A stretch of DNA of 39,770 bases from a virus, in IMG/VR virus record IMGVR_UViG_3300042559_001852, positions 1 to 39,770 of that record. One strand, 5' to 3'. Of the stretch, positions 5,102 to 21,900 are shown piece by piece (position 1 is the first letter of the stretch; each line of letters begins with the position of its first letter). The translations under genes and the position numbers were made by a program. The notes beneath the pieces were generated by a model, which was not told where the DNA came from, ran no database searches, and was given only the letters and a program-made list of their open reading frames with translations.

Positions 5102-8100
5102 TTAGTAAGTTCCACCATCTATAATAGCAATCGATACTGCACCAGAAGTTACTGTAAAGTTGTTAGCACTAAAGCTAGCTACACCTTTAACTGATGTATT
5201 TGCATCAATACCTGCAAGTGTTACTGCAGCAGTTTCAGACCCAGATCCGGTAACACTTAATCCAGTACCTCCGGTAACAGCAATTGTTGCAACATAGTTA
5301 CCAGTAGTATCAGTTCCGAGAGCAATAGAATCTGGTTGTATTGTAGTACTTATAGTAACATCAGAACTACCATTAAACGATACCGAACCTGTTACATCGC
5401 CGGAAAGTGTAATGGTTCGACCGGTTTGAAGTGTAGTAGCAGTTGAAGCGTTACCGACAAGTGCAGCAGTAATCGTGTTTGCACCAAAATTGCCAGATGA
5501 GTCACGAGCCACGACCTTATTCGGAGTGGGCGTAGTGGTAGCATCAACAGTTATCGTAAGTGTAGAGGCTTCGGATCCGCCGTCAGCACCTGTGATGTAA
5601 GATCCATTTGTAATAGCCGCTACATAGTTACCTGTGGTATCAGTACCAAGTGCAACTGAATTTGGCTGGACTGTTGTGCTGATGTCAACGTTACCGCTGC
5701 CATCAAATGATACAGAACCTGCTACATCTCCTGACAGGGATATCGTTCTCGCTGTTTGAAGTGTAGTAGCAGTTGAAGCGTTACCGACAAGGTTTGCAGT
5801 AATAGTATTTGCTGCAAAGTTTTTCGAAGAATCGCGGAATACGATAGTTGACGCAGTGTTCAGCGATGTAGCGTTTGATTCAATCGTATAATCTGTGCCT
5901 TCACCAGCCGTTCCGGTGATGGTGAGACCATTTCCAGAAACCGCCACAGATCCTGCATAGTTACCAGTTGTATCAGTTCCAAGAGCAACAGAATTTGGCT
6001 CTATTGTAGTGCTGATTGTAACGTTAGCCGTACCATCAATTGAAACAGAGCCAGTTACATCTCCTGATAGCGTAATAGTTCTTGCAGTGAGCCACTTTGA
6101 GGCTGTATCAGCATTGCCAATTAACGCACCTCTGAAATTAGCAGCTTCAATATCTGCAAGAGCAAAAGAGACATGACCAGTATCAATGAACGGGCTTGTA
6201 TCAGGTTCTGGTGTATATCCTTCAAATACTTTAAAATGCCCGTCTGATGCATCTCGGAAGAAACCGCCATGTTGATAGGTAGTATCATAATAGCCAAAAG
6301 CAAAGCCTAAGTCAGGGTTAGCATTTGATCTACCGCGAGCAGTACCACCAGATACATAAGTATCAGTTACTGAACTCGAGATAGTGAAAGTGTTTGCGGT
6401 AACACCTGTGATAGTTTTGTTCGATAAGTTAAATGAGCTTGGAGTAACTCCACTTATCGATACGCTGTATCCAACAAGATAGTTATGATTTTGTGTTGTA
6501 GAATAAACTACGTTCGCACCATCACCAACTATGTTAGAAATAGTAGTAGCAATTGCCTGGTTCATATATATCATATTATCTGAAACAGATAAGTTTGTCG
6601 CGCTCACAGTAGTAGTTGTACCGCCAACCACAAGGTTACCAGAGATTGTAACACCACCACCAAATGTACCATTATTGAATGTAACGTTTGCTGACGTCGA
6701 AACATCTTGCCCAATCGCGATCGTAGGTGTTGCGGTTTCACCTGAATTATTCGTGAGTGTAACACCAGTTCCTGCAACAAGACTTGCAACATAATCGCCA
6801 GTTGTATCTGTACCGAGAGCAACTGAATTTGGCTGAATAGTTGCGGTAATGGTAACGTTACCGAGATCTGTCATTGTAGCAGAGCCAGCGACATCACCAG
6901 AAAGAGTGATCACCGGGTCGTTAACATCAAAGTTTAAATAACCGCCGCCAACTCCGTTATCAGTATACGTTACACTGATACCGTTCTGCGTTCCGGTAAG
7001 CATTCCACCAACAGTGTCTTGAACTGCTTCGTCCCAGTTGTTTACCTGAGTGTTTGGAATAGAAATTGTGTTTGCAACAGCAGAAGTAATACGACCTTGC
7101 TGATCTACAACAAACGTCGTAGTCGCGGTTGCTGATCCGTACGTACCAGGTGTTACAGCAGTATCATCGAGGTCTACAGTTACGGTGTTGTTTGTAACTG
7201 TTGCGGTAATACCAGTGTCGCCAGTAATTGTGAGAGTATCTGAAATGAGCGATACACCATCAGTTCCAGAATTTCCAGCGATATTAAGAATAGTAGCAAT
7301 TGCAGCTGTGCTGGCCGCTGTTAGACGACCTTGTTGATCAACCGTAAATGTTGCAATCGAAGTAGTGTTACCATAAGATCCAGGTGCAACAGCAGTATCA
7401 TCAAGGTCAATGTCGACTCTGTTTTCCGTAACAGCAACGGTGATACCAGTGTTACCACTAAAATTGAGAGTATCACTGAGTAATGAAACTGAATCAGATC
7501 CAGAATCACCGGCAATTGCTAGATTTGTAGCGATAGAAACGGTGCTAGCAGCAGTCAGTCGACCTTGTTGATCAACAGTAAATGTTGCAATCGAAGTAGT
7601 GTTACCGTAAGATCCAGGTGATACTGCAGTATCATCGAGGTCAATCGTAATCGAATTATTCGATACTGTTGTAGTAATTCCAGTATCACCTGTGAATGTG
7701 ATAACTTCATTAGTAAGGATAGAATCTGTTGTGCCAACATCTGCAGCGATCTGAATAGCGACAGATCCGCCGGCAAATCTATCATCGACATACTTTTTAG
7801 TAGCTGCATCAGTATTTGCAGTCGGTGTGCCAAGATTAATGATTTTTGCTGAGCTTACATCAACATTTCCAGTACCATTTGGATCAAGCGTAATGTTTCC
7901 ATTTGTGTCTGTCGATGTGATAGCATTACCATTAATCGTAATATTATCAACGTTGAGTATATCGATTTTACTATTGGAATCGACAATGAGAGCAGAAGTA
8001 GCAGTTAAAGTACCAGGTACATGATCAAGCATGGCAGTAAAGTACTTACCGCCAATCACTTCAATGTTCGCTGCAACCCCGCCAGTCTCAGTGCCTGTAC

Positions 8101-8224
8101 CAATATAGAGACGTTCGCCACCATTTGATTGAGTTCCGCCGAGGAACGAATACGCCATTTCACCTTGCGCAAGAGCACCAGGTGATCCGGAAGAACCTGA
8201 TCGTTTGATTCTGATGAGTGACAT
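5102..8224 (-). CDS. Large repetitive tail-fibre protein, 1040 aa
   Basis: The ATG at 8224 overlaps the stop of the 81-aa gene (TAATG). The N-terminus MSLIRIKRSGSSGSPGALAQ continuing to LAQGEMAYSF is a typical fibre anchoring segment. Residues about 155-390 hold three tandem units with DLDDTAV.PGSYG and TFTVDQQGRLTAAST, spaced exactly 78 residues. From about residue 440 there are dispersed units of LSGDV.GSVS plus P.S.ALGTDTTGNY. A non-repeat segment around residues 560-680 includes GGFFRDASDGHFKVFEGYTP. The protein is nearly free of cysteine and ends VSIAIIDGGTY. It has no obvious C-terminal chaperone domain. The repetitive shaft-like architecture points to an elongated trimeric fibre. It is a paralogue of the fibre at 1-1502 and shares modules with the one at 18929-22219. 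Confidence 0.85.
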   Translation of the reverse strand: MSLIRIKRSGSSGSPGALAQGEMAYSFLGGTQSNGGERLYIGTGTETGGVAANIEVIGGKYFTAMLDHVPGTLTATSALIVDSNSKIDILNVDNITINGNAITSTDTNGNITLDPNGTGNVDVSSAKIINLGTPTANTDAATKKYVDDRFAGGSVAIQIAADVGTTDSILTNEVITFTGDTGITTTVSNNSITIDLDDTAVSPGSYGNTTSIATFTVDQQGRLTAASTVSIATNLAIAGDSGSDSVSLLSDTLNFSGNTGITVAVTENRVDIDLDDTAVAPGSYGNTTSIATFTVDQQGRLTAASTAAIATILNIAGNSGTDGVSLISDTLTITGDTGITATVTNNTVTVDLDDTAVTPGTYGSATATTTFVVDQQGRITSAVANTISIPNTQVNNWDEAVQDTVGGMLTGTQNGISVTYTDNGVGGGYLNFDVNDPVITLSGDVAGSATMTDLGNVTITATIQPNSVALGTDTTGDYVASLVAGTGVTLTNNSGETATPTIAIGQDVSTSANVTFNNGTFGGGVTISGNLVVGGTTTTVSATNLSVSDNMIYMNQAIATTISNIVGDGANVVYSTTQNHNYLVGYSVSISGVTPSSFNLSNKTITGVTANTFTISSSVTDTYVSGGTARGRSNANPDLGFAFGYYDTTYQHGGFFRDASDGHFKVFEGYTPEPDTSPFIDTGHVSFALADIEAANFRGALIGNADTASKWLTARTITLSGDVTGSVSIDGTANVTISTTIEPNSVALGTDTTGNYAGSVAVSGNGLTITGTAGEGTDYTIESNATSLNTASTIVFRDSSKNFAANTITANLVGNASTATTLQTARTISLSGDVAGSVSFDGSGNVDISTTVQPNSVALGTDTTGNYVAAITNGSYITGADGGSEASTLTITVDATTTPTPNKVVARDSSGNFGANTITAALVGNASTATTLQTGRTITLSGDVTGSVSFNGSSDVTISTTIQPDSIALGTDTTGNYVATIAVTGGTGLSVTGSGSETAAVTLAGIDANTSVKGVASFSANNFTVTSGAVSIAIIDGGTY
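5290..6920 (-). repeat. Dispersed ALGTDTTGNY/LSGDV units of the 1040-aa fibre
   Basis: Four units combining LSGDV.GS and P.S.ALGTDTTG.Y lie near 5300-5420, 5638-5740, 5965-6075 and 6798-6912, at uneven spacing. The same unit occurs in the paralogous fibre at about 360-460 and 1115-1215. Confidence 0.8.
7060..7760 (-). repeat. Three tandem 234-base repeats in the 1040-aa fibre
   Basis: The unit contains the 'VDQQGR(L/I)T' coding segment. On the plus strand its landmark (cgaccttg) begins at 7092, 7326 and 7560, exactly 234 bases (78 residues) apart. The two units nearest the gene start are the most alike, for example identical over TFTVDQQGRLTAAST. The third (7092) has diverged. They are coding repeats that likely form equal shaft segments. 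Confidence 0.9.
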
Positions 8225-8470: not shown

Positions 8471-8803
8471 TTAGATTCTCGTTATGCCAGGCGTTACTGT
8501 AACGATTCCTTCAACAACGCGAGTAATAGTTCCCCCTGAAGAAGTGATTTCTACATCGTATAGATATCTACCGGGTTCAATTGTCGAAGTCGTATTTGCT
8601 GTTAAAGAAAGAAATATTTCACCGTCAGCACTGCTATGACTTCCGACAAAATTAACAGCCGTACTTGATGCATAATTTTTTCGCATTTGCGCAGCGACGG
8701 TGTATCCAGTGAGATTAAACACATTATTTGATACATCAGTCAAATCGATAGTTGCACTAAATGTTGCACCCTGATCAACAACTAAATTTGCTTTAATAGC
8801 CAT
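8471..8803 (-). CDS. Ig-like/BppU-N-like baseplate or fibre attachment protein, 110 aa
   Basis: ATG at 8803 with a strong ribosome site (AAGGAGAT). An exact late promoter octamer lies 26 bases upstream, making this the first gene of the 8803-1553 fibre operon. The sequence (DQGATFSATIDLTDVSNNVF, FNLTGYTVAAQMRKNY, GRYLYDVEITSSGG, VVEGIVTVTPGITRI) is an Ig-like beta-sandwich. It resembles the N-terminal domain of BppU/DUF2479 receptor-binding proteins and many small proteins of T4-like marine phages. That domain normally attaches receptor-binding parts to the baseplate. The family link is by pattern, not by search. Confidence 0.72.
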   Translation of the reverse strand: MAIKANLVVDQGATFSATIDLTDVSNNVFNLTGYTVAAQMRKNYASSTAVNFVGSHSSADGEIFLSLTANTTSTIEPGRYLYDVEITSSGGTITRVVEGIVTVTPGITRI

Positions 8804-8844: not shown

Positions 8845-9591
8845 TTAAAGAGCACCTTCGATATCATTGAAAAACTCAATTCGAGCTTGAATAGCTGATA
8901 TTGCTGCTTGTTCAGCTTCATGAATCTTAATTGGATCATCGTCACAGAAGTATTCTACGAGTTTTTCTGACATTGGTCCATGCTCATCGCCATCTACTTC
9001 AATATGCCTCTGAAGATAATAGTGAAACTTAGGTGCTTCGAGTTTGCTAATGTTAAGCTGAGTTAATAACCGAGTAAACATATCTGGAATAATTGTTTCA
9101 CGACCATACGCAAATGAAGCTGCAGCACAATGCGGTCCCTTTTTAATCGTGTCAAAGGTACTACGCATAAATTTTTCAGCCGGCTTTGAAGCAAGATGGT
9201 ATGGAATATTTCCTATAATGTCTATGTTTTTAAGAAACACATTGATAGGTTTTACATCTGCATCTACTTCAAGCATTGACTGAAGATATAAGTCAAAATG
9301 ACTCACCGATCCGCCACCTGGTGCAACATCAGTTTCTTCACATAATACGATCTCATTAATCATTCTCGCAATATCAGAACGTGTTCCCTTTGTCGGAATC
9401 CACAAATATGTTGTCGGAACTACTTCGTGTTGCAATGTTTTAAGTAAGGACATAAAATCCCATACCGCAAACACGTGGTGCTCCATAAACACCCTTAAGT
9501 CTTGCTTTGACTGGATGTTATTTGTTATAAGAAGTGAATGATTCTTAAGTAAGTTTGAATGTTCTTCAATTAGTGTTTTGTTGAGTTTCAT
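8845..9591 (-). CDS. DUF3050-type haem-oxygenase-like putative diiron protein, 248 aa
   Basis: ATG at 9591 lies inside the end of the 451-aa gene (26-base overlap) with AAGGACAAG upstream. The segment RVFMEHHVFAVWDFMSLLK (residues 34-51), followed by MINEIVLCEETDV and SHFDLYLQSM, is the signature I associate with DUF3050. DUF3050 belongs to the haem-oxygenase-like diiron (HDO) fold. HDO relatives with known chemistry include UndA, BesC and SznF, which use O2. Candidate metal ligands are E80, E85, H98, E165, H196, D200 and H204 (in GRETIIP and RHIEVDGDEHG); the exact set is inferred. It is the last gene of the radical SAM block, so it may act on the same substrate or on a small molecule. It is soluble, and its substrate is unknown. 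Confidence 0.75.
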   Translation of the reverse strand: MKLNKTLIEEHSNLLKNHSLLITNNIQSKQDLRVFMEHHVFAVWDFMSLLKTLQHEVVPTTYLWIPTKGTRSDIARMINEIVLCEETDVAPGGGSVSHFDLYLQSMLEVDADVKPINVFLKNIDIIGNIPYHLASKPAEKFMRSTFDTIKKGPHCAAASFAYGRETIIPDMFTRLLTQLNISKLEAPKFHYYLQRHIEVDGDEHGPMSEKLVEYFCDDDPIKIHEAEQAAISAIQARIEFFNDIEGAL

Positions 9592-10921
9592 TTCTTGTCC
9601 TTAACCCATTAATATATCTTCTCATATAGTCTGTTGGCTCTTGATCATGTTTCATAACAACAGGTTGGCCAAAGAGTAATTGGAATGCATGAAGTTGAAT
9701 ATTTCCCCACCATACTTTTTCAAGAGCACAATTAGAATAGAATACGTGATCAGGAAACTTAATCGGGCATGAAGATCTACACAAACGTTTCACTGGGCAC
9801 TTCATGCAATGGGTCTTCTTGCGAAGAATGTCCATACCCTTGATCTCTACCTTCGTAACATCCTCAAGACGACCAGCAATAAAGCTTCCATCAGTATGAG
9901 GGCATAACCGAACATTGCCCTGAATATCTACAGACAATATATCGTTTGAGTCTGCTCCACAACCTGACTTTGTAGTGATAGGCGTAGCTCTCTTTAAGAA
10001 TTTCGCGTATTCAATCACGCCTTCTTCTGAATACACTATATTGTTTTTTAAGAATCGAACACGCTCAATGTCGTTTATACTCTGCTGGGTAAACTCGAAT
10101 AGATGCAAAGTAAATGCTTTTAACTTCTCTCCACGAAGAATGTAATTTGATGAAGCTTCACCAGTGTCATGCACATCATAGTTCTTAGCAGGAATGAATG
10201 TGATCTTCATTCTTTTGCGGTCAATTTGTTGAGAATCACAGAAGTCTTTAAAATAGTCGTTAATCGCGTATAGATCGTGGTTATCACTGCTTACGACTGT
10301 TGAAAATCCTAGGCCAACATTAGGCAAGTCAATAAGTTGTTTGATAACGTCGACTTTATTTGGCTTCTTCAATATATCTTCACCGCGAAGCTTCTCTTGG
10401 CCTACCGCGTCATGTGATAAACTAATAAGTACTCTTGCTTTCAGCGTTCGAAAGAAGTCTACATGTTTTTGAACAAAGGCAGAACCATTTGTAGATATAA
10501 AGAACTCACGATCTGGTGAATCAAAAAACGTCATCAACTGAACCATATCTTTCCAATATAAGAATGGTTCTCCGCCCCACAGTTCTACACGGTGTAAACG
10601 ATCAAGGTTTAAGTTCCGTTTGATATTAGCGATAAATGTATCTGTGTAAATAGACTGTGGTCTTTCAGACGGATTACCAATATCTTTTTGCATGCAATAT
10701 GTGCAATTATAATTACATGCATGCCCTAACAGAATTCGAATCGCAATTGGATTGTTTACTTTATTCGTGACACCGTGATTCTTTTCTTCTACTTCGTAAT
10801 AAGAAAGATCTCTTTCGGGTGGCATGTTTAATTGAACACCAGAGGTGTTCATTAGTCTATTCGTGTGTGAGTCATAATAGAAGGAAGTGCCATCCTTCAA
10901 TTCATAATATTGATAATCCAT
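9566..10921 (-). CDS. Radical SAM/SPASM enzyme, 451 aa
   Basis: ATG at 10921 overlaps the stop of the 126-aa HxH gene (TAATG), so the two are translationally coupled. The radical SAM cluster motif is HACNYNCTYC (C69, C73, C76), followed by LWGGEPFLY (GGEP 116-119). The C-terminus has a complete SPASM pattern: C321-x13-G-x4-C340, then C372-x2-C375-x5-C381-x3-C385 and C398, enough for two auxiliary 4Fe-4S clusters. Residues 1-55 form an extension of the kind that can recognise a peptide leader. SPASM enzymes with known roles (AlbA, PqqE, MftC, anSME) nearly all modify peptides or proteins, so a protein substrate is likely here. The coupled 126-aa protein is the first candidate. No 7-deazaguanine genes are nearby to suggest a QueE role. 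Confidence 0.9.
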   Translation of the reverse strand: MDYQYYELKDGTSFYYDSHTNRLMNTSGVQLNMPPERDLSYYEVEEKNHGVTNKVNNPIAIRILLGHACNYNCTYCMQKDIGNPSERPQSIYTDTFIANIKRNLNLDRLHRVELWGGEPFLYWKDMVQLMTFFDSPDREFFISTNGSAFVQKHVDFFRTLKARVLISLSHDAVGQEKLRGEDILKKPNKVDVIKQLIDLPNVGLGFSTVVSSDNHDLYAINDYFKDFCDSQQIDRKRMKITFIPAKNYDVHDTGEASSNYILRGEKLKAFTLHLFEFTQQSINDIERVRFLKNNIVYSEEGVIEYAKFLKRATPITTKSGCGADSNDILSVDIQGNVRLCPHTDGSFIAGRLEDVTKVEIKGMDILRKKTHCMKCPVKRLCRSSCPIKFPDHVFYSNCALEKVWWGNIQLHAFQLLFGQPVVMKHDQEPTDYMRRYINGLRTRNETQQNTN

Positions 10922-11301
10922 TATGCGAGTAAGTCATCCCATACATGGTTGTGTGATCGAAGCGCTTCCACCTGATTTCTCATCTCAGTGTATTGAGATG
11001 CCTTAATATCGCCACCTTGAGAAAATGTTGAAGCAATTGCAGTGAAACCCGAAACGGTATTAACCGTATCAGTAGTAGAAACAGTTCCGGGCGAGACTAA
11101 GTTACCAAATTCTTTGACTTGACTATAATCGGTAAGTGTATGTGTGTGGGCCCCAACTGCGTTAATAAAGTCTTTTAACATAGTATAATGTGCAGCTTGT
11201 ACAGTATTACCAGAAGCTACTTGTGCTAACAATGGGGTCGTATAGGTTGTACGAAGAGATAATGCTGGGCTTATCGATGTTGTACCGCTGAATGCTGGCA
11301 T
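10921..11301 (-). CDS. Small protein with two HxH modules, 126 aa
   Basis: ATG at 11301 with AAGGATTT upstream; its stop overlaps the start of the SPASM enzyme at 10921. It contains two copies of a 31-residue module, at residues 30-60 (H52, H54 in GAHTHTLTDY) and 95-125 (H117, H119 in RSHNHVWDDL). A third copy forms residues 20-50 of the 63-aa protein at 15123-15314. The three align without gaps, sharing Ala at position 7, an aromatic at 10, Ala at 19 and HxH at 23-25. No cysteine is present. HxH pairs bind metal in trimeric phage fibre tips such as T4 gp37, so a virion role is possible. A radical SAM substrate role is suggested by its place among the enzymes. Neither is proven. Confidence 0.78.
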   Translation of the reverse strand: MPAFSGTTSISPALSLRTTYTTPLLAQVASGNTVQAAHYTMLKDFINAVGAHTHTLTDYSQVKEFGNLVSPGTVSTTDTVNTVSGFTAIASTFSQGGDIKASQYTEMRNQVEALRSHNHVWDDLLA

Positions 11302-11311
11302 GATTAAATCC

Positions 11312-12451
11312 TTATTTGAAACTTATTATGGGAGTCGGATCACCTGATGGGAAGTATAAACCAACTTCAGTTCTTCGATATCCTAGCTCTATAAGTTTGT
11401 GATAGTATTTTGAGTTTTCACTTAACATCATCTTTGGTATAAAGTTAAATTCTCTATTCACTACAAATGTATCTACTGTATTTATATAGTAGTCTCTAAA
11501 TTTTTGTGCGGTAGAATCTAGCGATTGTTTTAACTCTTCAGAGAAAGAGTTATACAATTTAAACTTTCCATTAACCATATCATACATAAATTCTCTATGA
11601 TCAAAGTCCCCGCTCATTATGTGAAAAGGATCCCAATTTATATCAGTTGCGTCATCAATACTATAGAAGAATCTATCACCATATAGGTGAAGTGATCCAC
11701 GGTAGACCTGATACGTTCTATCATTGTAGCACAGCACGTGGCTGTTTTGATAGTCGAATAACCCCTGCAAGTCATGATCTGCATTACCGAGTTCGTTATC
11801 TTCAACACTTCTCTTTCTATAATCATTATGAAGAGACGTTACAATACCTTTATCATTTATCCACTCAACGAGTTCTTTTGCATGATAAGGTAATTCTGTT
11901 TCTGTTGTTTTGATTACCTTGACTTTATGTAAATCATACTTGCTTATATAATCTTGTAGTATCTCAATAATCTTGTTATAGTTTTTCTTTGAGTTTACTT
12001 TATTCATAAACTCTTCACTTAATGCAACTTCAGATAACCCTTTCATGTCGAGTTCCATAAGTGTCTTATGTTGTTTTATAAGTGCGTTATCGGTCATACC
12101 ATATTCAAAGGTAGAAGCGTGTTCCTTATACCAAGAATATACGTAAGGATAGTTTTCCTTAAGATAGGACAAATCGTCGACTACTCTAATAACGTAGAAG
12201 TAGCTGAAGATCTCGTACCAACGCTTTTCTTCTTCGGCGGTTATCTTGGTGGGCACTGCATTCGAATAATACGGCAGATGTTGATTTAGTTTTTGCTTAA
12301 TATAACAGACCTGACAATTCGCACCACAATAGTATTTGTTGGTAGGACTAAACGTAATATCATGATCTAAAGGTGCTAATGCATCTTCGGTTATGAAGTA
12401 CGCACTATTATCTTTGAATTTTCTAAATTCTTCACCAGTGTAACTACTCAT
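11312..12451 (-). CDS. Divergent radical SAM protein without SPASM domain, 379 aa
   Basis: ATG at 12451 (MSSYTGEEFR) is preferred over a TTG two codons upstream. It overlaps the preceding radical SAM gene by 8 bases. The motif YYCGANCQVCYI (C42, C46, C49) fits the CX3CX2C site for the SAM-binding 4Fe-4S cluster. The usual GGEP motif after it is not recognisable, and no SPASM cysteines follow. The remainder is mixed alpha/beta and rich in Tyr and Asp (YEIFSYFYVIRVVDDLSYLK, FEYGMTDNALIKQHK, HDYRKR), compatible with a partial TIM barrel. It may be an active but divergent enzyme, or a partner that presents the substrate to a neighbouring enzyme. Its place between other radical SAM genes supports the call. 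Confidence 0.7.
   Translation of the reverse strand: MSSYTGEEFRKFKDNSAYFITEDALAPLDHDITFSPTNKYYCGANCQVCYIKQKLNQHLPYYSNAVPTKITAEEEKRWYEIFSYFYVIRVVDDLSYLKENYPYVYSWYKEHASTFEYGMTDNALIKQHKTLMELDMKGLSEVALSEEFMNKVNSKKNYNKIIEILQDYISKYDLHKVKVIKTTETELPYHAKELVEWINDKGIVTSLHNDYRKRSVEDNELGNADHDLQGLFDYQNSHVLCYNDRTYQVYRGSLHLYGDRFFYSIDDATDINWDPFHIMSGDFDHREFMYDMVNGKFKLYNSFSEELKQSLDSTAQKFRDYYINTVDTFVVNREFNFIPKMMLSENSKYYHKLIELGYRRTEVGLYFPSGDPTPIISFK
11479..11486 (-). promoter_or_regulatory. Late-promoter-like octamer within the divergent radical SAM gene
   Basis: Exact TATAAATA on the minus strand, 178 bases upstream of the 126-aa HxH gene and inside the 379-aa coding sequence. It could give extra transcription of the HxH protein and the next two enzymes. 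The distance is large, so it may be chance. Confidence 0.4.
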
Positions 12452-13547
12452 ATCCAATCCAATGCAATAACGTTGGCTGCTGTTTTAATTTATGCAAATG
12501 ACGCACCATTAAACTAATCGTTTTATAGAAGTCAACACATTTTCCACTCGGCTCTTCTTCAAACATATGATAAAGATACTTTAACCCGCATGCGTCTCGA
12601 AGCTCACATGTTTGGCATCCTGGAAGAATGAAGTCTTCTTCGCTCTTTACTCGATCGAGATATTGCTGACCTCTCCATCTTCCAACTCTAAATTCTTTTC
12701 TCTTGTATTCAAGGTAATCAAATTCTGGGTAAAGATACCCATCAGGTGATAAGATAAGTTTCCCGTGATTATTGAGGTATTGCTTATCTATTTTGTCGTA
12801 GTTACCATCTATGTTGAGGTTAATACCTTGTACATACAGAGAATGAATAAATCTCATCAAGTATATACTATACCACTTCATATCGAAGTCGTCAATTAGG
12901 ACTCTGAACTTTTGTTTCCCTCGATGATGACGAAGAGGAATCAGGTTGAGTGTATCGCATCTACTTTCTTTGCACGCGCTAATTACCGCTGCAAGTGTGT
13001 GCTCGTTGAATCCATCGGGTGGGCACACGAATTGAAACATCAAATAACAGTTGTTTCGATATAAGACTTCTGACAATCCTTTCAGGTCTATCTTTTCACG
13101 ATTGATCTCTTGATAGTTGAAGTCGTAACTCAAGGTGATGTGGGTTTTATTCCATTTCTGAAAGAACCACTCGTTTTCTACAATAAGTGATCCGTTTGTT
13201 GTGATGTAGTATTCAACGTCATCACCAAACATCGGATGTATTAAATCCATCAATTGATCAATGCGTTTGATATACAGAAACGGTTCACCTCCGTGAAAAG
13301 AAATTGACTTAAGATCTTTCGCATGTTCTTTCGCGAGAGTCATAAATTTTACGATCTCATCAAAGTCTCGTTTAAGAAGATTCTGTGAACCTATCTCATC
13401 CCGGATGTAAGATCGGTCACAGTAAACACAGTCGAAGTTACAAAAGTCTCCGAGGTATACTGTGATCGTCTTTATTCCAGTAAAGTCGAAAGACTTGTTT
13501 TGTTGATGCTGTTCTGTTCGTGTCTGAAGACGATTGTCGATATGCAT
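12444..13547 (-). CDS. Radical SAM enzyme with shortened SPASM/Twitch-like tail, 367 aa
   Basis: The cluster motif is GDFCNFDCVYC (C36, C40, C43 counting from ATG 13547), with FHGGEPFLY (GGEP 86-89). The C-terminal region has SPDGYLYPEFDY where a full SPASM would have its first cysteines, then C311-x2-C314-x5-C320 and C337. One auxiliary Fe-S cluster, as in Twitch domains, therefore looks likely. The start is uncertain: ATG 13547 or GTG 13562, neither with a good ribosome site. Both lie inside the 3' end of the upstream radical SAM gene, an overlap of 75-90 bases in a different frame. No later in-frame start would keep the first barrel strand. The substrate is probably a peptide or protein, by analogy and context. 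Confidence 0.85.
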   Translation of the reverse strand: MHIDNRLQTRTEQHQQNKSFDFTGIKTITVYLGDFCNFDCVYCDRSYIRDEIGSQNLLKRDFDEIVKFMTLAKEHAKDLKSISFHGGEPFLYIKRIDQLMDLIHPMFGDDVEYYITTNGSLIVENEWFFQKWNKTHITLSYDFNYQEINREKIDLKGLSEVLYRNNCYLMFQFVCPPDGFNEHTLAAVISACKESRCDTLNLIPLRHHRGKQKFRVLIDDFDMKWYSIYLMRFIHSLYVQGINLNIDGNYDKIDKQYLNNHGKLILSPDGYLYPEFDYLEYKRKEFRVGRWRGQQYLDRVKSEEDFILPGCQTCELRDACGLKYLYHMFEEEPSGKCVDFYKTISLMVRHLHKLKQQPTLLHWIGYE

Positions 13548-15121
13548 TGGATGTAATAACACTTCACTATGTCTGAATCTGGATTGAACGTAATTTCTGG
13601 GTAGCCAAAGTATTTCGCGAGTGTATTATATAACTCTCTCAAATCATTTGCACCGAACCAGTCATTCATTATTTTTTCCGGTGGTTCGAGTGTATCGCGG
13701 ATTTTCACGTAGTGTTCGAACATGCCTTGATCCAGCGTACGTCCTTCAAAGACTTCTCGAAAGAACGTAAGTTCAGCTGACATGATCTGAGGACCGAGCT
13801 CTTGAAGACGTTTGGCTCTCTTTTTTACATGCCGCATAAAGATCTTTTTATTTACATCGTGCTGAAAGTCAACATAAAGCTTAACGATCTTTTGGCACAT
13901 ATCGTCTGGGCGGAAGATTCGAGAACCGGTGTCAAGATTTCCTGCTGGGCACTGGTAGCATGCGTTCTGATAGTCACATGTACGGCACTGTTCTTCTGTC
14001 TCAAACATCTCGTTGTAAGCGTTTTGAAACGTCTTATACCGATCGACGTACACCTTGTCCTGAATAACGTTTCCAAGAACCGCGATGTCAGCGCCATTTG
14101 ACTTTTGGTTGGTAAAGAAATAACAGCCAGAGAAGTCACCTGATGCATCGATGGCAACCATATGTGAACCAACCATACAGTTACTATCTTCCTTTTGGCC
14201 AACACCTTCTGAAAACTTAACATACAGATCTTCATACGTCTCAAGCGCGTTGAAGATCTTCGATCTCATCGACTGCCAGTTATCGTCTTTCCACGAGATG
14301 TACCCATGTTTTGAGTCGAGCACAAGAGGGTGTACAACCATGTTTCTAACACCTAGGCTGTATAACTCATCGATGAAGTTACCCATGTCCCGACTTGTTT
14401 CTTCTGAGAGTGTTGCACGAATTACAACTCGCATAGGATCATCGACAGTATCAATTGCTTTTTTGATAATACCACGAAGCTTATTCATCTGTGAAGGCGT
14501 AATCTCACGATGATCGATCGTCGAATTGAAAGTATCGAGACTGATCATCATATGAGTATACGGTTTGCTGAAATAGAACTCAGTGAACTCATCGTTGAGT
14601 AACAGTCCGTTTGTACACATTGAGATGTACGTTCCGCGATAGTCTTTATAGTTTGAACTGAGTTCTTCGTCGTAAGTCTCAATGAATTCTTTTATTAACG
14701 GCTTATGAATAAGAGGTTCACCGCCAAAGAACTGAAAGACCTTCTTTTGCCCGTTGTTTCTAGCATTCATCCAGTCATAGACTTGTTTGAGAGATTCCTT
14801 TGTGAACCGACCAAAGTCCTTGTTGTGTTGTTCATAACAATAAGAGCACGCTAAGTTGCATGCGTTAGTAAGCATAGCATTTACCTGAACAAGATCTTTA
14901 AATAAGGTTTCTGCTTGGGCAAAAGGGACTGCTTTTTCTTCAGACTTTGGAAGAACCGTGATGAGTTTATTTGACTTTTGACCTTTGCCAGATATATTGA
15001 TAGTTTCAACACTTGTGACAAGAGCGCCTTCTTGATCTATGACCGAAGGTGTATGATTCTTTAACCTATTCTTTTGTGCTTCATTTAAGACTCTTCTCAC
15101 ATTCGCATAATTATTTGACAT
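13472..15121 (-). CDS. Radical SAM/SPASM enzyme next to the CQCNC peptide, 549 aa
   Basis: The preferred start is ATG 15121 (MSNNYANVRR), 1 base after the stop of the 63-aa peptide gene, with GAGG about 12 bases upstream. An in-frame ATG at 15175 would overlap that gene. The cluster motif is NACNLACSYCYE (C88, C92, C95), then FFGGEPLIH (GGEP 133-136). A SPASM-type set follows: C315-x12-G-x4-C333, C379-x2-C382-x5-C388-x2-C391 and C409. Residues 1-75 are a long extension before the barrel, a common place for a leader-binding domain in RiPP maturases, though I do not see a clear RRE fold. About 140 residues follow SPASM and are unusual. Location directly behind a Cys-rich small protein is the classic arrangement of a peptide maturase and its precursor. 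Confidence 0.9.
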   Translation of the reverse strand: MSNNYANVRRVLNEAQKNRLKNHTPSVIDQEGALVTSVETINISGKGQKSNKLITVLPKSEEKAVPFAQAETLFKDLVQVNAMLTNACNLACSYCYEQHNKDFGRFTKESLKQVYDWMNARNNGQKKVFQFFGGEPLIHKPLIKEFIETYDEELSSNYKDYRGTYISMCTNGLLLNDEFTEFYFSKPYTHMMISLDTFNSTIDHREITPSQMNKLRGIIKKAIDTVDDPMRVVIRATLSEETSRDMGNFIDELYSLGVRNMVVHPLVLDSKHGYISWKDDNWQSMRSKIFNALETYEDLYVKFSEGVGQKEDSNCMVGSHMVAIDASGDFSGCYFFTNQKSNGADIAVLGNVIQDKVYVDRYKTFQNAYNEMFETEEQCRTCDYQNACYQCPAGNLDTGSRIFRPDDMCQKIVKLYVDFQHDVNKKIFMRHVKKRAKRLQELGPQIMSAELTFFREVFEGRTLDQGMFEHYVKIRDTLEPPEKIMNDWFGANDLRELYNTLAKYFGYPEITFNPDSDIVKCYYIQCISTIVFRHEQNSINKTSLSTLLE

Positions 15122-15122
15122 C

Positions 15123-15314
15123 TTAGATACTGCCTCGGGCACAGTTGCACTGACAATTTGATGTATAGTCATCACTAAATGTATGGCTGTGCTGAATCAA
15201 CGCATCAAGCACATCGACCATCTGCCGAAAAGATGCGGCATCAATTGTTTGGCCTGACGTTTTTGCTGTAGTGGATCCAGCTGCTGTAAATGTACTCGTG
15301 TTATCTGCAACCAT
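15123..15314 (-). CDS. 63-aa HxH protein ending in CxCxC; candidate radical SAM substrate
   Basis: ATG at 15314 with AAAGGATAAC upstream; TAA 1 base before the radical SAM/SPASM gene. Residues 1-19 are Thr/Ala/Ser-rich. Residues 20-50 are the 31-residue module also found twice in the 126-aa protein at 10921, with H42 and H44 in QHSHTFSDDY. The tail TSNCQCNCARGSI places cysteines at 54, 56 and 58. Three cysteines in five residues stand out because the structural proteins around it contain almost none. An exact late promoter lies 68 bases upstream, so this is the first gene of a transcript that continues into two radical SAM enzymes. It could be a RiPP-like precursor with the module as leader or scaffold and the tail as core. 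It could also be a small metal-binding virion protein that is not modified. The gene is well supported; the role is inferred. Confidence 0.75.
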   Translation of the reverse strand: MVADNTSTFTAAGSTTAKTSGQTIDAASFRQMVDVLDALIQHSHTFSDDYTSNCQCNCARGSI

Positions 15315-15319
15315 GTTTG

Positions 15320-16327
15320 TTATCCTTTAGCTACGATAAATTCTATCTTGTATTTGCCCGCAGTAGCAGTACGATCGTATCTATTTATAATTGAATCTAT
15401 ATTGTATTCTAATGTGATATATCCAAAGTGTCGAGTCGGGTCTACGTGAATTTTTCCGTCCTTCACTTTTACAGTTAAATTAGTTTTGATTTCTCTATCA
15501 AATTTTATCTTATTACCGTATTTACCAAAGTAAGTACCACCTTCATATTCGTGTATAACGAACTGGGACGTCGTAAAAATAGTATTCTTGTTTACAGTGT
15601 ATGTTCCGGAACCTTCGATTCTTGGTGTTAAAAAGTATTCTTCTATTGTGGCATCATATGCATCCATCGTAAAGGCGTGATGAGAATTATTATACACATT
15701 TGAATCAATACTCGGCATTGCTACTAAATGTGGATTGAGTACACAAACAACTAATTCTGAGTTTTTTGTTTTTTTGAAAACGCAATAAGTTACTGTAGCA
15801 ATAGAAGCTAATCCATCAATAGGATTGTTATCTCCACTTAAGTTAATCACGTTAAAATCATCATCTCGAGTATAGTAGTACGATTTAGCCATCAACGTTT
15901 TCTTATTCATGGCGATATTACTTAGTGGAGTTCCGAGTGCAACCCAAGAATGTTTTTCTAAATAACTGTACACTTCATCAAGATTAATAACTCTACTATT
16001 ATCTGAGTCTAGACTAACATTAGGCGTTAAATATTCCTTTAGAATAAGTTGGCCCTTTGACTCACCAACTTCAGTATTCATACCAGAGTTATTTGTTTCT
16101 ATTACATACTTAAACGATTCAGACTCAAACTGTTCGAGTATGGGCGCCTTTAATTTATGTATGCGTTCATCTTTCACTATATTAGCGAGTGAAGATCTTC
16201 CAGAATTAACTGGCATATATAAGCCGTTAAACGACCACTTATCGCCAATAGCAAGGTTCATTACATCAGTACAGTTTTCCCAAATGGGTGGACGCTTTGA
16301 CGCCCATATAAATGCCCAGTTAATCAT
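15320..16327 (-). CDS. Hypothetical protein within the radical SAM block, 335 aa
   Basis: ATG at 16327 overlaps the stop of the 191-aa gene (ATGA), so the two are translated together. The N-terminus MINWAFIWASKRPPIWENC is rich in Trp. The middle has SYYYTRDDDFNVINLSGDNN and ELVVCVLNPHLVAMP. The C-terminal 120 residues look all-beta, with Thr/Lys/Asp-rich strands (TNLTVKVKDGKIHVDPTRHF) and a close TAGKYKIEFIVAKG. No signal peptide, membrane segment or known catalytic motif is visible. I do not recognise the family. A structural beta protein, a target of the neighbouring enzymes, or an enzyme of unknown type are all open. An exact late promoter for the next gene lies within its last 70 bases. 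Confidence 0.65.
   Translation of the reverse strand: MINWAFIWASKRPPIWENCTDVMNLAIGDKWSFNGLYMPVNSGRSSLANIVKDERIHKLKAPILEQFESESFKYVIETNNSGMNTEVGESKGQLILKEYLTPNVSLDSDNSRVINLDEVYSYLEKHSWVALGTPLSNIAMNKKTLMAKSYYYTRDDDFNVINLSGDNNPIDGLASIATVTYCVFKKTKNSELVVCVLNPHLVAMPSIDSNVYNNSHHAFTMDAYDATIEEYFLTPRIEGSGTYTVNKNTIFTTSQFVIHEYEGGTYFGKYGNKIKFDREIKTNLTVKVKDGKIHVDPTRHFGYITLEYNIDSIINRYDRTATAGKYKIEFIVAKG
15382..15389 (-). promoter_or_regulatory. T4-type late promoter octamer upstream of the CQCNC peptide gene
   Basis: Exact TATAAATA on the minus strand, 68 bases upstream of the 63-aa gene (start 15314), in the last part of the 335-aa gene. It would make the peptide the first gene of a late transcript that continues into radical SAM enzymes, giving high peptide expression. 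Confidence 0.65.
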
Positions 16328-16899
16328 AGTGACCTAATATATGCTATAACTTCTTCGCTTGAATTGCCATCAAAGAATACATCAAACTTATCTTTGTGTT
16401 TTCTTAAAAAGTTTGAATAAGATTCTTGGAATAGATGCGCTGATTCTTCGCTTAAGTTTTCATGTGTGACAAGATGGTGAATACTTCGAGGAGTAACCCA
16501 CCCAATATAGACGTGAGGTACATGTGGGCGATTGCCTGAATAAGCAATTGGTAAGACAACATGACCTTCAAGTTCTCTTCCAATATATACGTCTGATTCA
16601 TATTTTAAGAAGATAAACTTATTCATATCGTGAAACGCTTCTTCAAAAAACTTTATATATGTGTCTTGATCTTGAAGGGATTCAAATACATACTTATAAT
16701 CTCCACGCTTAAATGCATCAATGACGTCTTGAGGATATTCATGTTGAATTAAATTCTTTGCAACGATATCTAAAAAGTAAGCGTCTTCCATACAAAATTG
16801 TATAAAGTTATCTGCATGCCAGTTGTTGACCTTATTGCGAATAGCATTATTCACATCGTCAATCTCAATGTTCATCGCTAACACTACTTTTTTTAACAT
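16324..16899 (-). CDS. Hypothetical protein within the radical SAM block, 191 aa
   Basis: ATG 16899 is chosen for its AGAGGTTAACCC ribosome site. It overlaps the end of the B12-type radical SAM gene by 7 bases. An internal ATG at 16875 (MNIEIDD) has no such site. The first 110 residues are mostly helical and acidic (FIQFCMEDAYFLDIVAKNLI, DAFKRGDYKYVFESL). The second part contains GNRPHVPHVYIGWVTPRSIH followed by HLVTHENLSEES, with several His residues that might bind metal, and a helical end. I do not recognise a family. The overlap on both sides ties it to the radical SAM enzyme upstream and to the 335-aa protein downstream, so a shared pathway or a partner role is plausible. Confidence 0.65.
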   Translation of the reverse strand: MLKKVVLAMNIEIDDVNNAIRNKVNNWHADNFIQFCMEDAYFLDIVAKNLIQHEYPQDVIDAFKRGDYKYVFESLQDQDTYIKFFEEAFHDMNKFIFLKYESDVYIGRELEGHVVLPIAYSGNRPHVPHVYIGWVTPRSIHHLVTHENLSEESAHLFQESYSNFLRKHKDKFDVFFDGNSSEEVIAYIRSL

Positions 16900-18920
16900 G
16901 GGTTAACCTCTATGTGCCGAAACATCTTATTTGAGCCACTGATAGAACACAGTTTAATGAAGTACTTGTTTACTCTCTCGTTCATATCATATTTATGCCA
17001 ATCGATCATGTGGTGAAGATCTGTGTATGTTACATCCATTGGAGTATTGTTGTATGTACCTTTGACTAAACTTTCTGACGTCCAATCATATTCACTTACA
17101 AATGACATAGGATTTTCAGGATTATAATCGATCCATTTAACAGTGTTGATGCTCCAATTGATTAGATCGTCTAGTTTCTCATCATCACCAAATTCGTCGA
17201 TGATCCACCTTTTTACTGCTTGATAAAAGTTATAACGGTTGATGTTGATCATGATGTTAATTAGTGCTGACATCTTTGCATACAATTTCCACGGTAAACC
17301 ATCAAGTCTATAGTATTCGAAGTTAATCGCACTTTTTTCCTGTACTTTTTGCTGGGCCTGTAGTATAATGCTTTTAAGCACAGAAAATTGGATAGAGTCT
17401 AAGTATTCAGTGTTAATGAATGTTTTGTAGAATTTTTTATAGAATGTAGAGTGTGGTATACCGATAGAGTCTAGGTACTGAGTAATTCTACGAAGGTATC
17501 CTTCAGTCTCCATAGTAAAAATAATACCATCAGACACAAGCATCTCTACGTACTCTTCTCGAGAGTAGGACATAGTAGCTACTACGATCTTTGATGGCTG
17601 TACATACTCAGGTGCTTCAATTAGACCTCTTTGTTTGATCAAAGATCCGTCCATCAGAATGTCTTCTCGAATTACCGCATCCTTTGTAGATTCGGTTAAA
17701 GATTCAATCATTTCGAGTTTAAACTTTTTGATATAATCTGAATGTGAAGCAGGTGATGTGGGAAGAAGATGCCATGTATACTTTTCCCAGAATACATTTA
17801 GTTTTGCCATTTCACCTGCTGCGAAATAGTAGTTTTCAAGTGTCGTGCCGGGAAGACCTCGAATCAACTCTGCTCTGATTTTGATACCAAACTCTTCGCG
17901 GAGTTCGTTATAAGCTTTGAACTGCTTTTCCCAAGGTTCATCTATTCTGTCGATGTTCTTTAAGACTTGAGGATCCATATCTTGCATTGATATCTTAAAG
18001 CCGGATGCAAGCCCATGCTGAGCCATCAGCCTATCAATCTTGTACACATTTGACTTCTTAGACTTGCTTAATCCAGCAAACACTATTTCCTTTGGCAGGT
18101 CGTATTTCTTTTTAAGCTCACACACATATTCCATAATTTCGACATCACGATCTAGTTGACCAAGATTTGCCTCAACCATGTGAAGATCTTCTAATGCATT
18201 ATTTTCTGCGAGCCATGTTAAATCTTCAATGATATCTTCAGTCGGTCTGAATGCAACCTTTGAGTTAATACCACCACTCCACTCGCAGAAGGTGCACCCG
18301 TATGGGCACCCGCGGTGAGTTTCGTAGATAGTCTGAAGTGTTACACCTGGAATACGATTATCGATCACATCTTTGATGTAGTCTTTATTACGTTCAAAGA
18401 TTTTCTTTGGCCAAGTAAATGAACGCTTATGAAATGTAATAGGTGATGTAATATAACCATCATCTTTTGCCATTACTATAAAGGGGACTTTCATCCAATC
18501 TTTATCAGTCTCTATTTGATAGAGTAATTCATTGATGAAAGGTTCACCATAGCCATCGGTTTGACAAGTAAAATCTACATACGGGTATTTCTTAAAATAA
18601 TCTGGGTCTTCCTTATATTCGCAGTAAGGCCCACCAAATGTAATGTAAATGTCTGGTCTATTTTCTTTAATCCGCCGAGCGACTTCTCGAGATAATCCTA
18701 CGTTCCATACGTAGACGGAAAATCCTACAAGTGCAGGATCTTTTGACAAGATATCGTCGACAAGTTCTTGAACGTCGTTAGCCCTTGAAGAAGAAATTGG
18801 GTAGTGCCAATTCCACTTAGCACTACCCTTATAATTATCTTCTACATATGACTTAAACGACATCCACGCGTAATCATACACATTATCGCGTATAGTGTAA
18901 TTTACATAAACAAAATTCAT
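16893..18920 (-). CDS. B12-binding-type radical SAM enzyme, 675 aa
   Basis: ATG at 18920 with AAGGAACA upstream, 8 bases after the fibre gene. Residues 1-140 resemble the cobalamin-binding Rossmann domain of class B radical SAM enzymes (PALVGFSVYVWNVGLSREVA, PDIYITFGGPYCE, with GGP at 96-98). The DxHxxG histidine motif is absent, as in several members of this group, so B12 binding is probable but not certain. The radical SAM motif is THRGCPYGCTFCEW (C205, C209, C212). The barrel continues with LHMVEANLGQLDRDVEIMEY and FKISMQDMDPQVLKNIDR. The C-terminal 250 residues are a separate helical region of unknown role. Relatives methylate unreactive carbons or phosphorus, or carry out ring rearrangements. 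Its place at the head of the block suggests that methylation or another B12-dependent step may come first. Confidence 0.85.
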   Translation of the reverse strand: MNFVYVNYTIRDNVYDYAWMSFKSYVEDNYKGSAKWNWHYPISSSRANDVQELVDDILSKDPALVGFSVYVWNVGLSREVARRIKENRPDIYITFGGPYCEYKEDPDYFKKYPYVDFTCQTDGYGEPFINELLYQIETDKDWMKVPFIVMAKDDGYITSPITFHKRSFTWPKKIFERNKDYIKDVIDNRIPGVTLQTIYETHRGCPYGCTFCEWSGGINSKVAFRPTEDIIEDLTWLAENNALEDLHMVEANLGQLDRDVEIMEYVCELKKKYDLPKEIVFAGLSKSKKSNVYKIDRLMAQHGLASGFKISMQDMDPQVLKNIDRIDEPWEKQFKAYNELREEFGIKIRAELIRGLPGTTLENYYFAAGEMAKLNVFWEKYTWHLLPTSPASHSDYIKKFKLEMIESLTESTKDAVIREDILMDGSLIKQRGLIEAPEYVQPSKIVVATMSYSREEYVEMLVSDGIIFTMETEGYLRRITQYLDSIGIPHSTFYKKFYKTFINTEYLDSIQFSVLKSIILQAQQKVQEKSAINFEYYRLDGLPWKLYAKMSALINIMININRYNFYQAVKRWIIDEFGDDEKLDDLINWSINTVKWIDYNPENPMSFVSEYDWTSESLVKGTYNNTPMDVTYTDLHHMIDWHKYDMNERVNKYFIKLCSISGSNKMFRHIEVNPC

Positions 18921-18928
18921 ATTGTTCC

Positions 18929-21900
18929 TTAGAGGATAACAGCCTCTACCATTAATGCTCCATCTTCAAGAGCAATTGCGAATGACCATGCATTTCTTGT
19001 GTTATCTACCCACGCATAACCTGGAGTTGTAGAAGGTGCAAGTCTATCACCTTTCTTACATCCGCCAATTACCTTAACCGGAACTCGACCTTTGAGCGCA
19101 ATCGCAGTTCCACCTTCGAGATTGTTATTCATAAGATACGCCGGCTTTTCTGAAACTACACCAAGAACTGAATGAGCATTATCAACATTAGCAGCTGTTA
19201 CTTCTGCAGTGCCACCGACTGCAATAACTGTACCAACTTCATAGGCTTGATCTGCAAGATAATTTTCTGCAAGGTCAGCGTACTGGGCAGTCGTTGCAAT
19301 ACCATCAAAGGTAGTAGCAAATACAGTTGCGAATTTTAATGTAGAAGAGCCTAGGTTGTAAGAGTTTGTTGTATCTGGAAGAGCGCTACCACTATAGCGT
19401 AATGTTGGGAACGTCTTTGTACCGGATAGAGTTTGGTTACCGGTTGTACGTATAACGGTCGAATCGACTGCAAAGCTTCTATCTGCAGTTAGGTCGCCGC
19501 CGCCGCTTAAACCATCTCCTGCTGCGATATTTCTTGAAGTTCTTACGAGAGTGGTTGCTATTCTTGCATCAGCAATAGTTCCTGAAGAGATATTTGAACC
19601 GTTGAGCGATGTAAGTGATGCACCAGAACCAGAGAAGGCTACAGCAGTAATCGTGTTTGCCGCAAAGTTACCCGATGCATCTCGAGCTACAACCGTTCCG
19701 GCCGTTGCAAGGTTAGTTGCATCTACGTCCCATGTTACTGCAGCAGAGCCATTGAAGTTTGATCCGTTGAGATAGTTACCGGCAGTATGCGCTTGGTTTG
19801 TATTAGCAGTCACAGTAATATTATTTGCGCCGTTGAACGATACGCCATTAATTGTTCTTGATGTCTGAAGCGTCGTTGCAGTTGATGCGTTGCCGACAAG
19901 AGCAGCGGTAATGGTGTTTGCCGCAAAGTTTTGCGCCGCATCCCGAGCAACTATCTTATCCGCTGTAGACGTTGTCGTAGCATCAACCGCCCAAGTAGTA
20001 GCCGCTCCACCATTGAAGTTTGAACCGGTGAGATACGTACCACGAGTGAGTGTATTTGGTGTATTTGCTGTAATTGTAATTGCAGCAGAACCATTAAAGT
20101 TAACACCATTAATTGCTCGGGCTGTAGCAAGAGTAGTGGCTGTAGACGCATTACCTACAAGATCTGCAGTAATCGTGTTTGCAGCAAAGTTTTGTGATGC
20201 ATCGCGAGCAACAACTTTTCCAGCAGTAGAGGTTGTCGTAGCATCAACCGCCCATGTAGTCGCAGCTGAACCGTCAAAGTTCGAACCGGTAAGGTACGTT
20301 CCGCGAGTAAGAATGTTATTCGTATTCGCAGTTACAACAATATTTGCTGAACCGTTGAATGATACTCCATTGATTGTCCGTGCGGTCTGCAAAGTAGTAG
20401 CGGTTGAAGCATTACCGGTCAACGTTGCAGTAATTGTATTCGCTGCAAAGTTACCTGAGACGTCTCTCGCAACCACTTTACTTGCTGTTGCTGCATCTGT
20501 TGCGTCAACATCCCAAGTAGTAGCGGCCGATCCATTAAAGTTTGAACCAGTAAGATAAGCACCACGAGTAAGAGTGTTATTCGTATTCGCCGTAACAGTG
20601 ATATTAGCAGATCCGTTAAACGAAACGCCGTTAATCGTTCTTGCCGTTTGCAGGGTGGTTGCAGTAGTAGCATTACCAGTAAGAGCCGCAGTAACAGTCG
20701 TTGCAGTTACGGTATTTGCAGTTACGTTGTTCGCAAATAATTGATTCCAACGTCTCGCAGTTGAACCAAGCGTAAATGTTACGTTTGCTGTTGGTAAGAT
20801 ATTTGTATCAAATCCAGCACCGCCCACAAGCGATATGGTATTTGATACGTTTAGATCTTGCACATCGGAAGAGCTAAGAGTGAGTGTTACGTTAGACGAG
20901 AAGTAAGATGTACCATACACATACAGGTCGCGACGAATGATCATATCACGATCGACTTCAGCATCTACTTGAATATTCACACTGTTCGCAACATCAAGAT
21001 CTTTTACGAAAGCGGTGTCCCAACGCATAAGATCTGCGCCAAGATCATAAGTCGTATTAGCGCCAGGTGAAACAGAAGTAGAGTTAGCAACAAGAGGTGT
21101 AACTGTAACAGTAGTATTGGCAAGGCTGAGATTCAACTCGGGCTGAGTACCAGTTGTAGCCTGAACCTTGAGAGACTTTGATGCACCTTTTAGGCGAATC
21201 TCATCTGTAGCTTCAAGCGCGGTGACTGTAGTATTTGCACCATTAAATGCGGCGTTACCTGCAACCGTGATCTGATTAGTAACAACTACGGTATTTGCAA
21301 CATCAAGGTCTTTTGTCCAAGTTTTGTTCCATCTTGCGGATGTCGAACCGACGTCATAAGTGGTTGTTGTATCTGGTAATAACGCAGTTGAAGATACAAT
21401 AAGCGGAGTAATAGTTGCTGATGTATTTGCAAGACTTAAATTAAGCGAATACAAAGTAGAATTTGTACTCTGAGTCTTCACGGTTCTTGCGCTTGTACCC
21501 TTGAGTCTTACTTCGCCAGTAGCTTCAAGAGCAGTGACTGTAGTGTTCGATCCAGTAAACGCAGCATTTGCAGTTACTGTGAGGATGCCATCGATGTTTG
21601 TGTTCGAATTAAAATCAGCTAAGCTATTTACTACAAGAGAATCTGAAGCATTGAATCCGAGTGTGATTACATCAACGTTTGCATTGAGAGAAGCAGCAGT
21701 TACTATTGTGTTTGAAGTAACATCAAATGTTGTACCATCGATATCAACCCGTGTGCCGGTAAACTCAGAACTTGTTCGAACAAACAACTGACCAGCATTA
21801 ATGGTTGTATTTGCTGCAGAAATTAAAACCGTCTTAGTCGAATCAATTGCAACGTTACTCGTAAACGTAGTATTGTTTGAATTTACAGTAAAGTTATCGG

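Follow-up and report, generated by a model that had tools for sequence, protein, structure and literature searches.

A conserved radical SAM gene cassette of phages and its candidate peptide substrate

Introduction

What does a phage do with four radical SAM (rSAM) genes and a probable fifth set between the genes for its tail fibres, and on what do their products act? The question is raised by a 39,770-nucleotide stretch of a T4-like phage (positions 1 to 39,770 of IMG/VR record IMGVR_UViG_3300042559_001852), called the window in what follows. Its baseplate and fibre genes, including one for a gp25-type baseplate protein, all lie on the minus strand, and the enzymes lie among them. A first-pass annotation had read the enzymes as a modification system acting on a virion component. 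That interpretation is partly supported here.

The same annotation knew of no described phage system of this make-up, which holds for substrate and function and not for the gene clusters themselves. Groups of radical SAM genes have been noted in the Ralstonia phages RP12 and RP31 (PMC5468394), in Burkholderia phages FLC6 and S13 (PMC8066314, PMC11898562), in Aeromonas phage 332-Vera, with eight such genes inside the structural cluster (PMC12390700), and in T4-like environmental genomes (PMC5332604). The literature has treated such clusters either as ‘highly unusual’ or as genes of host metabolism. No openly readable paper was found that names a peptide, partners, a conserved cassette or a function for them, and a search for a phage RiPP or an rSAM-modified virion found none among open papers (subscription papers and preprints were outside its scope).

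The gene block

An ORF check placed all ten genes of the block on the minus strand at 8845-18920, as the first-pass annotation had them. In order of transcription they encode a B12-type rSAM enzyme (675 aa), a 191-aa orphan, a 335-aa orphan, a 63-aa HxH protein (HxH63), rSAM A (549 aa), rSAM B (367 aa), rSAM C (381 aa), a 126-aa HxH protein (HxH126), rSAM D (451 aa) and a DUF3050 protein (248 aa). Successive intergenic gaps are -7, -4, 5, 1, -76, -14, 10, -1 and -26 nt, so that the genes overlap at six of nine junctions and the description ‘mostly overlapping’ is borne out. Both flanks belong to tail-fibre or fibre-assembly families: a 1096-aa tail-fibre protein at 18929..22219 (minus strand; tail-fibre family match) and a 110-aa L-shaped tail-fibre assembly-type protein at 8471..8803 (minus strand; phrog_1084, phrog_3304), the latter followed downstream by a 1040-aa tail-fibre protein at 5102..8224 (minus strand; tail-fibre family match). 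The block is not a chance assembly, because its synteny is kept in divergent relatives, at 66-80% and at about 30-60% amino-acid identity.

The precursor-like peptide

The key element is absent from the first-pass annotation: the 63-aa protein has a CxCxC C-terminus. HxH63 (15123..15314, minus strand) has a variable N-terminus, a helix, the segment HSHTFSDDY and then a cysteine ladder, NCQCNC-ARGSI; its C-terminus is DDYTSNCQCNCARGSI, also written as ending HSHTFSDDYTSNCQCNCARGSI. L007, which was the first divergent relative to come to light, keeps the ladder stretch essentially unchanged and differs in other parts of the protein. Wider relatives have ladders such as NCQCNC, CECQCQC, CDCQCQCNC and CNCNCNCNCNC, with three to six cysteines, followed in nearly all family members by x-R-G-[S/T/I]-hydrophobic. 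Among 39 distinct C-terminal parts the RG tail is present in all but one, and just five residues serve as spacers within the ladder: N (52), Q (41), A (19), E (15) and D (12).

Mean pairwise identity in the family is 28% before the helix, 41% in the helix and 65% from HxH to the end; judged by sequence comparison, this is a leader-and-core profile. Two hallmarks of RiPP systems are thus found, a Cys-rich conserved core behind a more variable leader (65% versus 28%) and a short ribosomally made precursor beside a maturase, the HxH63 gene lying directly upstream of the gene for rSAM A, a CteB/PapB-like SPASM enzyme, with 1 nt between them and with the linkage conserved.

Two loci depart from the common form. 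The single peptide without the RG tail (L052, CECECGGGGTI) is in a 39.9-kb record that has rSAM D and the B12 enzyme; rSAM A and C are absent from it. In another record (L195:9793-10416, minus strand; the same record as L050) an intein-like insertion, running from CFAGDTLIHT to ASGIITKN with C next, interrupts the cysteine ladder. Its removal would give ...CQCNCA-CNCTC..., a ladder again; no Pfam match was found for the intein-like segment.

Linkage of peptide and enzymes

The association was examined in both directions. The forward search used a degenerate 51-nt DNA pattern for H.H.[FY].D.[YF]...C.C.C and no enzyme information. It found 54 viral loci, every one of which (54/54) encodes the peptide, and homologues of the window enzymes adjoin nearly all of them. 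As a control, the same pattern was run across 84,980 species genomes and gave 10 matches, three real members and seven chance matches. Chance matches are so rare in this set that chance cannot explain the viral result, and chance occurrence of the pattern was rejected.

The reverse searches ignored the peptide and collected relatives of rSAM A at an identity of at least 37% (57 viral records; the next drop is to 27%) and relatives of rSAM C (53 viral records). Among these 57 and 53 records there was no intact locus without the peptide. Twelve loci lack it (three from the rSAM A search and nine from the rSAM C search), and in each the contig end falls where the peptide would lie, a position judged from the arrangement in the nearest relatives. 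We consider it very likely that the HxH63 peptide is the substrate of the enzymes; the protein-modification system proposed in the first-pass annotation has thereby gained a specific, conserved substrate candidate tied to the enzymes in both directions.

It might instead be supposed that the (CX)n tail binds metal in the manner of a metallothionein and that the rSAM enzymes act on a neighbouring fibre, on a protein of about 300 aa (the family of the 335-aa orphan) or on HxH126. CxC and HxH are common metal-binding motifs, and the ~300-aa protein, too, is almost always present. Only in the peptide, however, is a Cys-rich, copy-number-variable and near-invariant C-terminus linked directly to rSAM A, and the flanking fibres vary between phages whereas the peptide core does not. 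We regard this explanation as unlikely, although the ladder could bind metal unmodified.

Cassette architecture

In intact loci the order A>B>C>D is invariant, inverted and relocated cassettes included. HxH126, with its double HxH, and the ~300-aa family are near-constant companions, and the DUF3050 protein, the B12 enzyme and the 191-aa orphan are optional members. The four orthogroups keep distinct signatures: TNACNLSCxYCYEQ in A, CNFxCxYCDR in B, CxAxCxxCY in C and HACNYxCxYCMQK in D.

Some loci show local rearrangements. Two extra ORFs, a 173-aa methyltransferase-like protein and a 123-aa protein, lie between rSAM B and C at L007:9350-10224, and at L195:5037-7313 two radical SAM domains are joined in one protein of 758 aa, apparently B fused to A. 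In L008, a near relative at about 87-92% identity, rSAM A and D are each split into two ORFs (13799-15442 and 17993-19348) by frameshifts or sequencing errors.

Radical SAM enzymes

Four of the five proteins that the first-pass annotation called radical SAM enzymes (675, 549, 367 and 451 aa) score above the Pfam cut-off for Radical_SAM (PF04055); the fifth (379 or 381 aa, depending on the start codon) is without such profile support.

rSAM A (13472..15121, minus strand; 549 aa, TNACNLACSYCYEQ) is a SPASM maturase by its profiles, with cysteines C88/C92/C95 (CX3CX2C) and C315, C333, C379, C382, C388, C391 and C409, the full SPASM set. The SPASM cysteines of both A and D are invariant or nearly so in family alignments, as expected of maturases. 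Against the PapB equivalog NF047865 rSAM A scores 125.1 bits, under the curated cut-off of 340 bits, and its best solved relative is 5wgg (4e-24), matched across the radical SAM and SPASM domains. We take 5wgg to be CteB, the SCIFF thioether maturase.

rSAM B (12444..13547, minus strand; 367 aa from ATG, motif CNFDCVYCDR) was assigned from Pfam and alignments, has a partial SPASM-like C-terminus and aligns with 8vpo, CteB and others. rSAM D (9566..10921, minus strand; 451 aa, HACNYNCTYCMQK), likewise assigned from Pfam and alignments, has the SPASM Cys set, and its nearest structures are an unnamed rSAM structure, 8vpo, and a sulfatase-maturating enzyme.

rSAM C (11312..12457, minus strand; phrog_36229) has 381 aa from TTG or 379 from ATG. 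The general family libraries gave no match (none in Pfam; best NCBIfam E-value 0.009), and hhalign gave no link to rSAM B or D. All of 17 relatives, with identities as low as 22%, keep its CX3CX2C motif. An AlphaFold model with a pLDDT of 88.9 had weak Foldseek matches, including DesII, EpeE and NifB, all with E-values above 0.06. rSAM C is a probable, divergent fifth radical SAM enzyme.

The optional 675-aa protein (16893..18920, minus strand) is assigned by profiles to the B12-binding radical SAM enzymes of the KedN5-like methyltransferase class. KedN5-type enzymes are cobalamin radical SAM C-methyltransferases; the best NCBIfam match of the protein is KedN5 NF033712, with 131.4 bits against a curated cut-off of 700, a similarity at class level only. 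Its B12-binding domain scores 30.8 bits against a cut-off of 32.1.

Partner proteins

The DUF3050 protein (8845..9591, minus strand) scores 263.6 bits with PF11251, well above the gathering threshold of 22.2, and the family assignment of the first-pass annotation stands. DUF3050 is the MgoB family, with a predicted diiron centre (PMC3298696, PMC4520260). H98, E165, H196, D200 and H204 are among the residues invariant in an alignment of 14 distinct members; residue conservation thus retains the Glu/His/Asp ligands of haem-oxygenase-like diiron oxidases and agrees with the putative diiron character that had been suggested. The protein is therefore a candidate oxidase of the MgoB type, which it resembles, together with the haem-oxygenase-like enzymes CADD and PolF, in Pfam family and conserved ligand pattern; unlike them it is tied to rSAM peptide genes. 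In two records DUF3050 homologues at 38-39% identity (L029:2546-4752, L030:1051-3236) have a radical SAM gene of another kind as their partner and no peptide cassette.

HxH126 (10921..11301, minus strand; phrog_31780), a proposed fibre-type partner, is a paralogue of the HxH module of the peptide, lacks cysteines and has a weak match to the tail-fibre family phrog_25747 (E-value 0.0019). The HxH126-type proteins encoded at L055:6620-7978 and L059:1013-2371 (minus strand) carry a Hint-like domain at the C-terminus (CFPAGSFVLMADG).

The 335-aa protein (15320..16327, minus strand) belongs to the orph335/308 family, which is present in 61 of the 67 loci examined and has a novel beta-rich fold. The model of the ~300-aa family protein (pLDDT 87) has a single good structural match, a protein of Ralstonia phage RP12, and the PDB fold search returned only meaningless low-TM matches. 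We propose that it is a carrier or assembly partner. The 191-aa orphan (16324..16899, minus strand) occurs only in cassettes with the B12 enzyme beside the peptide.

Carriers and genomic settings

A 279,845-bp record (L094/L098) has a complete cassette: HxH126, the peptide (...SNCNCNCACTRGSL), the ~300-aa protein, A, B, C, D and DUF3050. Near-exact PHROG matches (phrog_31780, phrog_32604), together with the RP12 match of the ~300-aa protein, indicate that it is RP12 or a very close relative. The counterparts of the peptide, the HxH protein and the ~300-aa protein in RP12/RP31 have 65, 125 and 295 aa. The genome paper lists for RP12 ORFs 76-80 a radical SAM protein, an Fe-S oxidoreductase, a MoaA-like protein and MgoB (PMC5468394), and this list matches the L098 cassette. 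The Ralstonia jumbo phage RP12 thus very probably carries the cassette.

Searches of isolate phages with the B12 enzyme, rSAM A, rSAM C, DUF3050 and HxH126, and likewise with the rSAM A of L094 and with a ladder peptide, returned no cassette member and only distant SPASM proteins; the collection has no entries under the accessions tried for RP12 and RSF1, and the absence of matches there means little. Plasmid searches returned only unrelated SPASM enzymes.

Fibre or virion structural genes adjoin the cassette in T4-like phages, in the RP12-like phage and L063 (phrog_2163 for these two), and in L113, whereas the cassettes of L021, L025/L160 and L114 lie beside non-structural genes. The expected fibre or virion neighbourhood is accordingly seen in several unrelated backgrounds, these being T4-like phages, the RP12-like jumbo phage and an S74-domain pilin-like locus of a Bdellovibrio MAG, and is missing in L021 and L025/L160. 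The first-pass annotation had named as counter-evidence relatives with the enzymes far from fibre genes and with a complete small-molecule pathway; in L021 and L025/L160 the first half is found, yet these cassettes have the peptide and its HxH partner and no visible small-molecule pathway.

The cassette also occurs in contigs assigned to bacteria. A Bdellovibrio sp. MAG contig (L228, 1971-19998) carries a complete cassette in a chromosome-like setting, with the peptide CNCNCNCNCTRGTL and a second copy of rSAM C; a few kb away lie three ORFs whose products have S74, a fibre-maturation domain, and one of these also has a prepilin N-methylation motif. rSAM C was found in one of 66 genomes of that Bdellovibrio family. 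A complete cassette in such a contig means that the virion is not the sole possible destination of the product. A 253-kb contig of Ewingella americana E4 (L227), probably a jumbo phage or phage-plasmid, has a cassette with a fused HxH-peptide protein ending CNCNCNCNCNCTRGII, with large fibre-like ORFs adjoining.

Fe-S assembly genes accompany some cassettes. Near the cassette lie IscU in L021 (L021:16279-16659) and IscU with two A-type Fe-S carrier genes in L025 (L025:11217-12298), and four of the 18 cassette-bearing viral records searched have IscU, in some of them elsewhere in the record. Such genes fit the view, put forward for T4-like viruses that have IscU, A-type carriers and numerous radical SAM genes (PMC5332604), that the enzymes are auxiliary metabolic genes serving the Fe-S or cofactor metabolism of the host. 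But most cassette records are without IscU, for which reason a purely auxiliary-metabolic or Fe-S reading was rejected; the peptide is tied to the enzymes in every intact locus, and the Fe-S assembly genes are better explained as supply for the phage's own rSAM enzymes. We consider a role in host metabolism very improbable.

Proposed mechanism

The block is probably a phage-encoded, RiPP-like peptide-maturation cassette that acts on the HxH63 Cys ladder, its product being built into the fibre or baseplate. The substrate would be the C-terminal ladder C-x-C-x-C(-x-C)n-x-R-G-[S/T]-hydrophobic. rSAM A, a relative of thioether-forming maturases, would bind HxH63 and introduce thioether or related bonds into its (CX)n ladder, the modification would be completed by rSAM B, C and D, and DUF3050, as an oxygen-dependent diiron oxidase, might add further oxidation. 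In phages that have it, the B12-dependent enzyme would methylate. Where IscU and A-type carriers lie near the cassette, they may supply clusters to its rSAM enzymes. All of these chemical steps are predicted from homology and gene linkage; thioether-type chemistry in particular is put forward tentatively, at slightly less than an even chance.

Neither the ten window genes nor the RP12-like cassette include a recognisable exporter or transporter, protease, leader peptidase or immunity gene, and the product therefore probably stays attached to HxH63. This weighs against a free product (a bacteriocin, metallophore, signal or cofactor) made from the peptide and delivered during infection or at lysis. 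Such a product would suit the RiPP-cluster-like architecture of small peptide, SPASM enzymes and oxidase, and the mangotoxin operon includes a member of the DUF3050 family, MgoB (PMC3298696), with related oxidases acting on small molecules. Against this, the HxH module of the peptide is shared with HxH126, the double-HxH partner travels along, and many cassettes adjoin fibre genes. We judge release to be improbable. With the mature ladder retained, HxH63 would join HxH126 and the ~300-aa protein in a tail-fibre or baseplate structure and give it a chemically rigid or metal-binding tip; a virion or fibre destination seems somewhat the likelier outcome.

Relation to known systems

The nearest analogues are the SPASM thioether RiPP systems (ranthipeptides with PapB; SCIFF with CteB) and QhpD, which share a ribosomal Cys-rich substrate beside a SPASM enzyme. 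QhpD cross-links an enzyme subunit. rSAM A is closest to profiles and structures of the PapB/CteB type. Unlike these systems, the cassette is phage-encoded, has four rSAM orthogroups in fixed order, has a substrate that joins an HxH fibre-type module to an alternating (C-N/Q/A/E/D)n ladder, is without protease or exporter and falls far under the curated cut-offs (for PapB, 125 versus 340 bits). The 675-aa protein differs in the same manner from KedN5, being far under the 700-bit cut-off (131 bits) and optional in the cassette.

Implications

An rSAM set packaged with a tiny CxCxC...RG protein occurs in numerous uncultured phages and very probably in at least one that has been cultured, and because that peptide is present in every intact locus, the phage rSAM enzymes now have a definite candidate substrate that can be put to the test. 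Both RP12 and RP31 exist in culture, which makes such a test feasible at present; for RP31, 32 virion proteins were identified by LC-MS/MS (PMC5468394). The cassette would work like a SPASM RiPP system, though without exporter and protease, and there is a realistic chance that it is a new class of virion modification. If the cassette reading is true, it would explain Fe-S assembly genes such as IscU in some cassette phages, and the Fe-S genes treated in PMC5332604 could likewise be understood as suppliers of clusters.

With slightly less than an even chance, diverse tailed phages from T4-like to phiKZ-like jumbo types finish a virion part by radical chemistry: the four rSAM enzymes, with oxygen- and B12-dependent helpers, would turn the alternating cysteine ladder of the small HxH protein into the tip of a fibre or baseplate, either cross-linked or loaded with metal. 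A Bdellovibrio lineage may have taken the cassette over for surface fibres. Should that be so, the system would form a new RiPP-like class with a product that remains within a nanomachine; and provided that the virion contains the modified protein, viruses would have a form of post-translational modification not described before, from which new peptide chemistry could be drawn.
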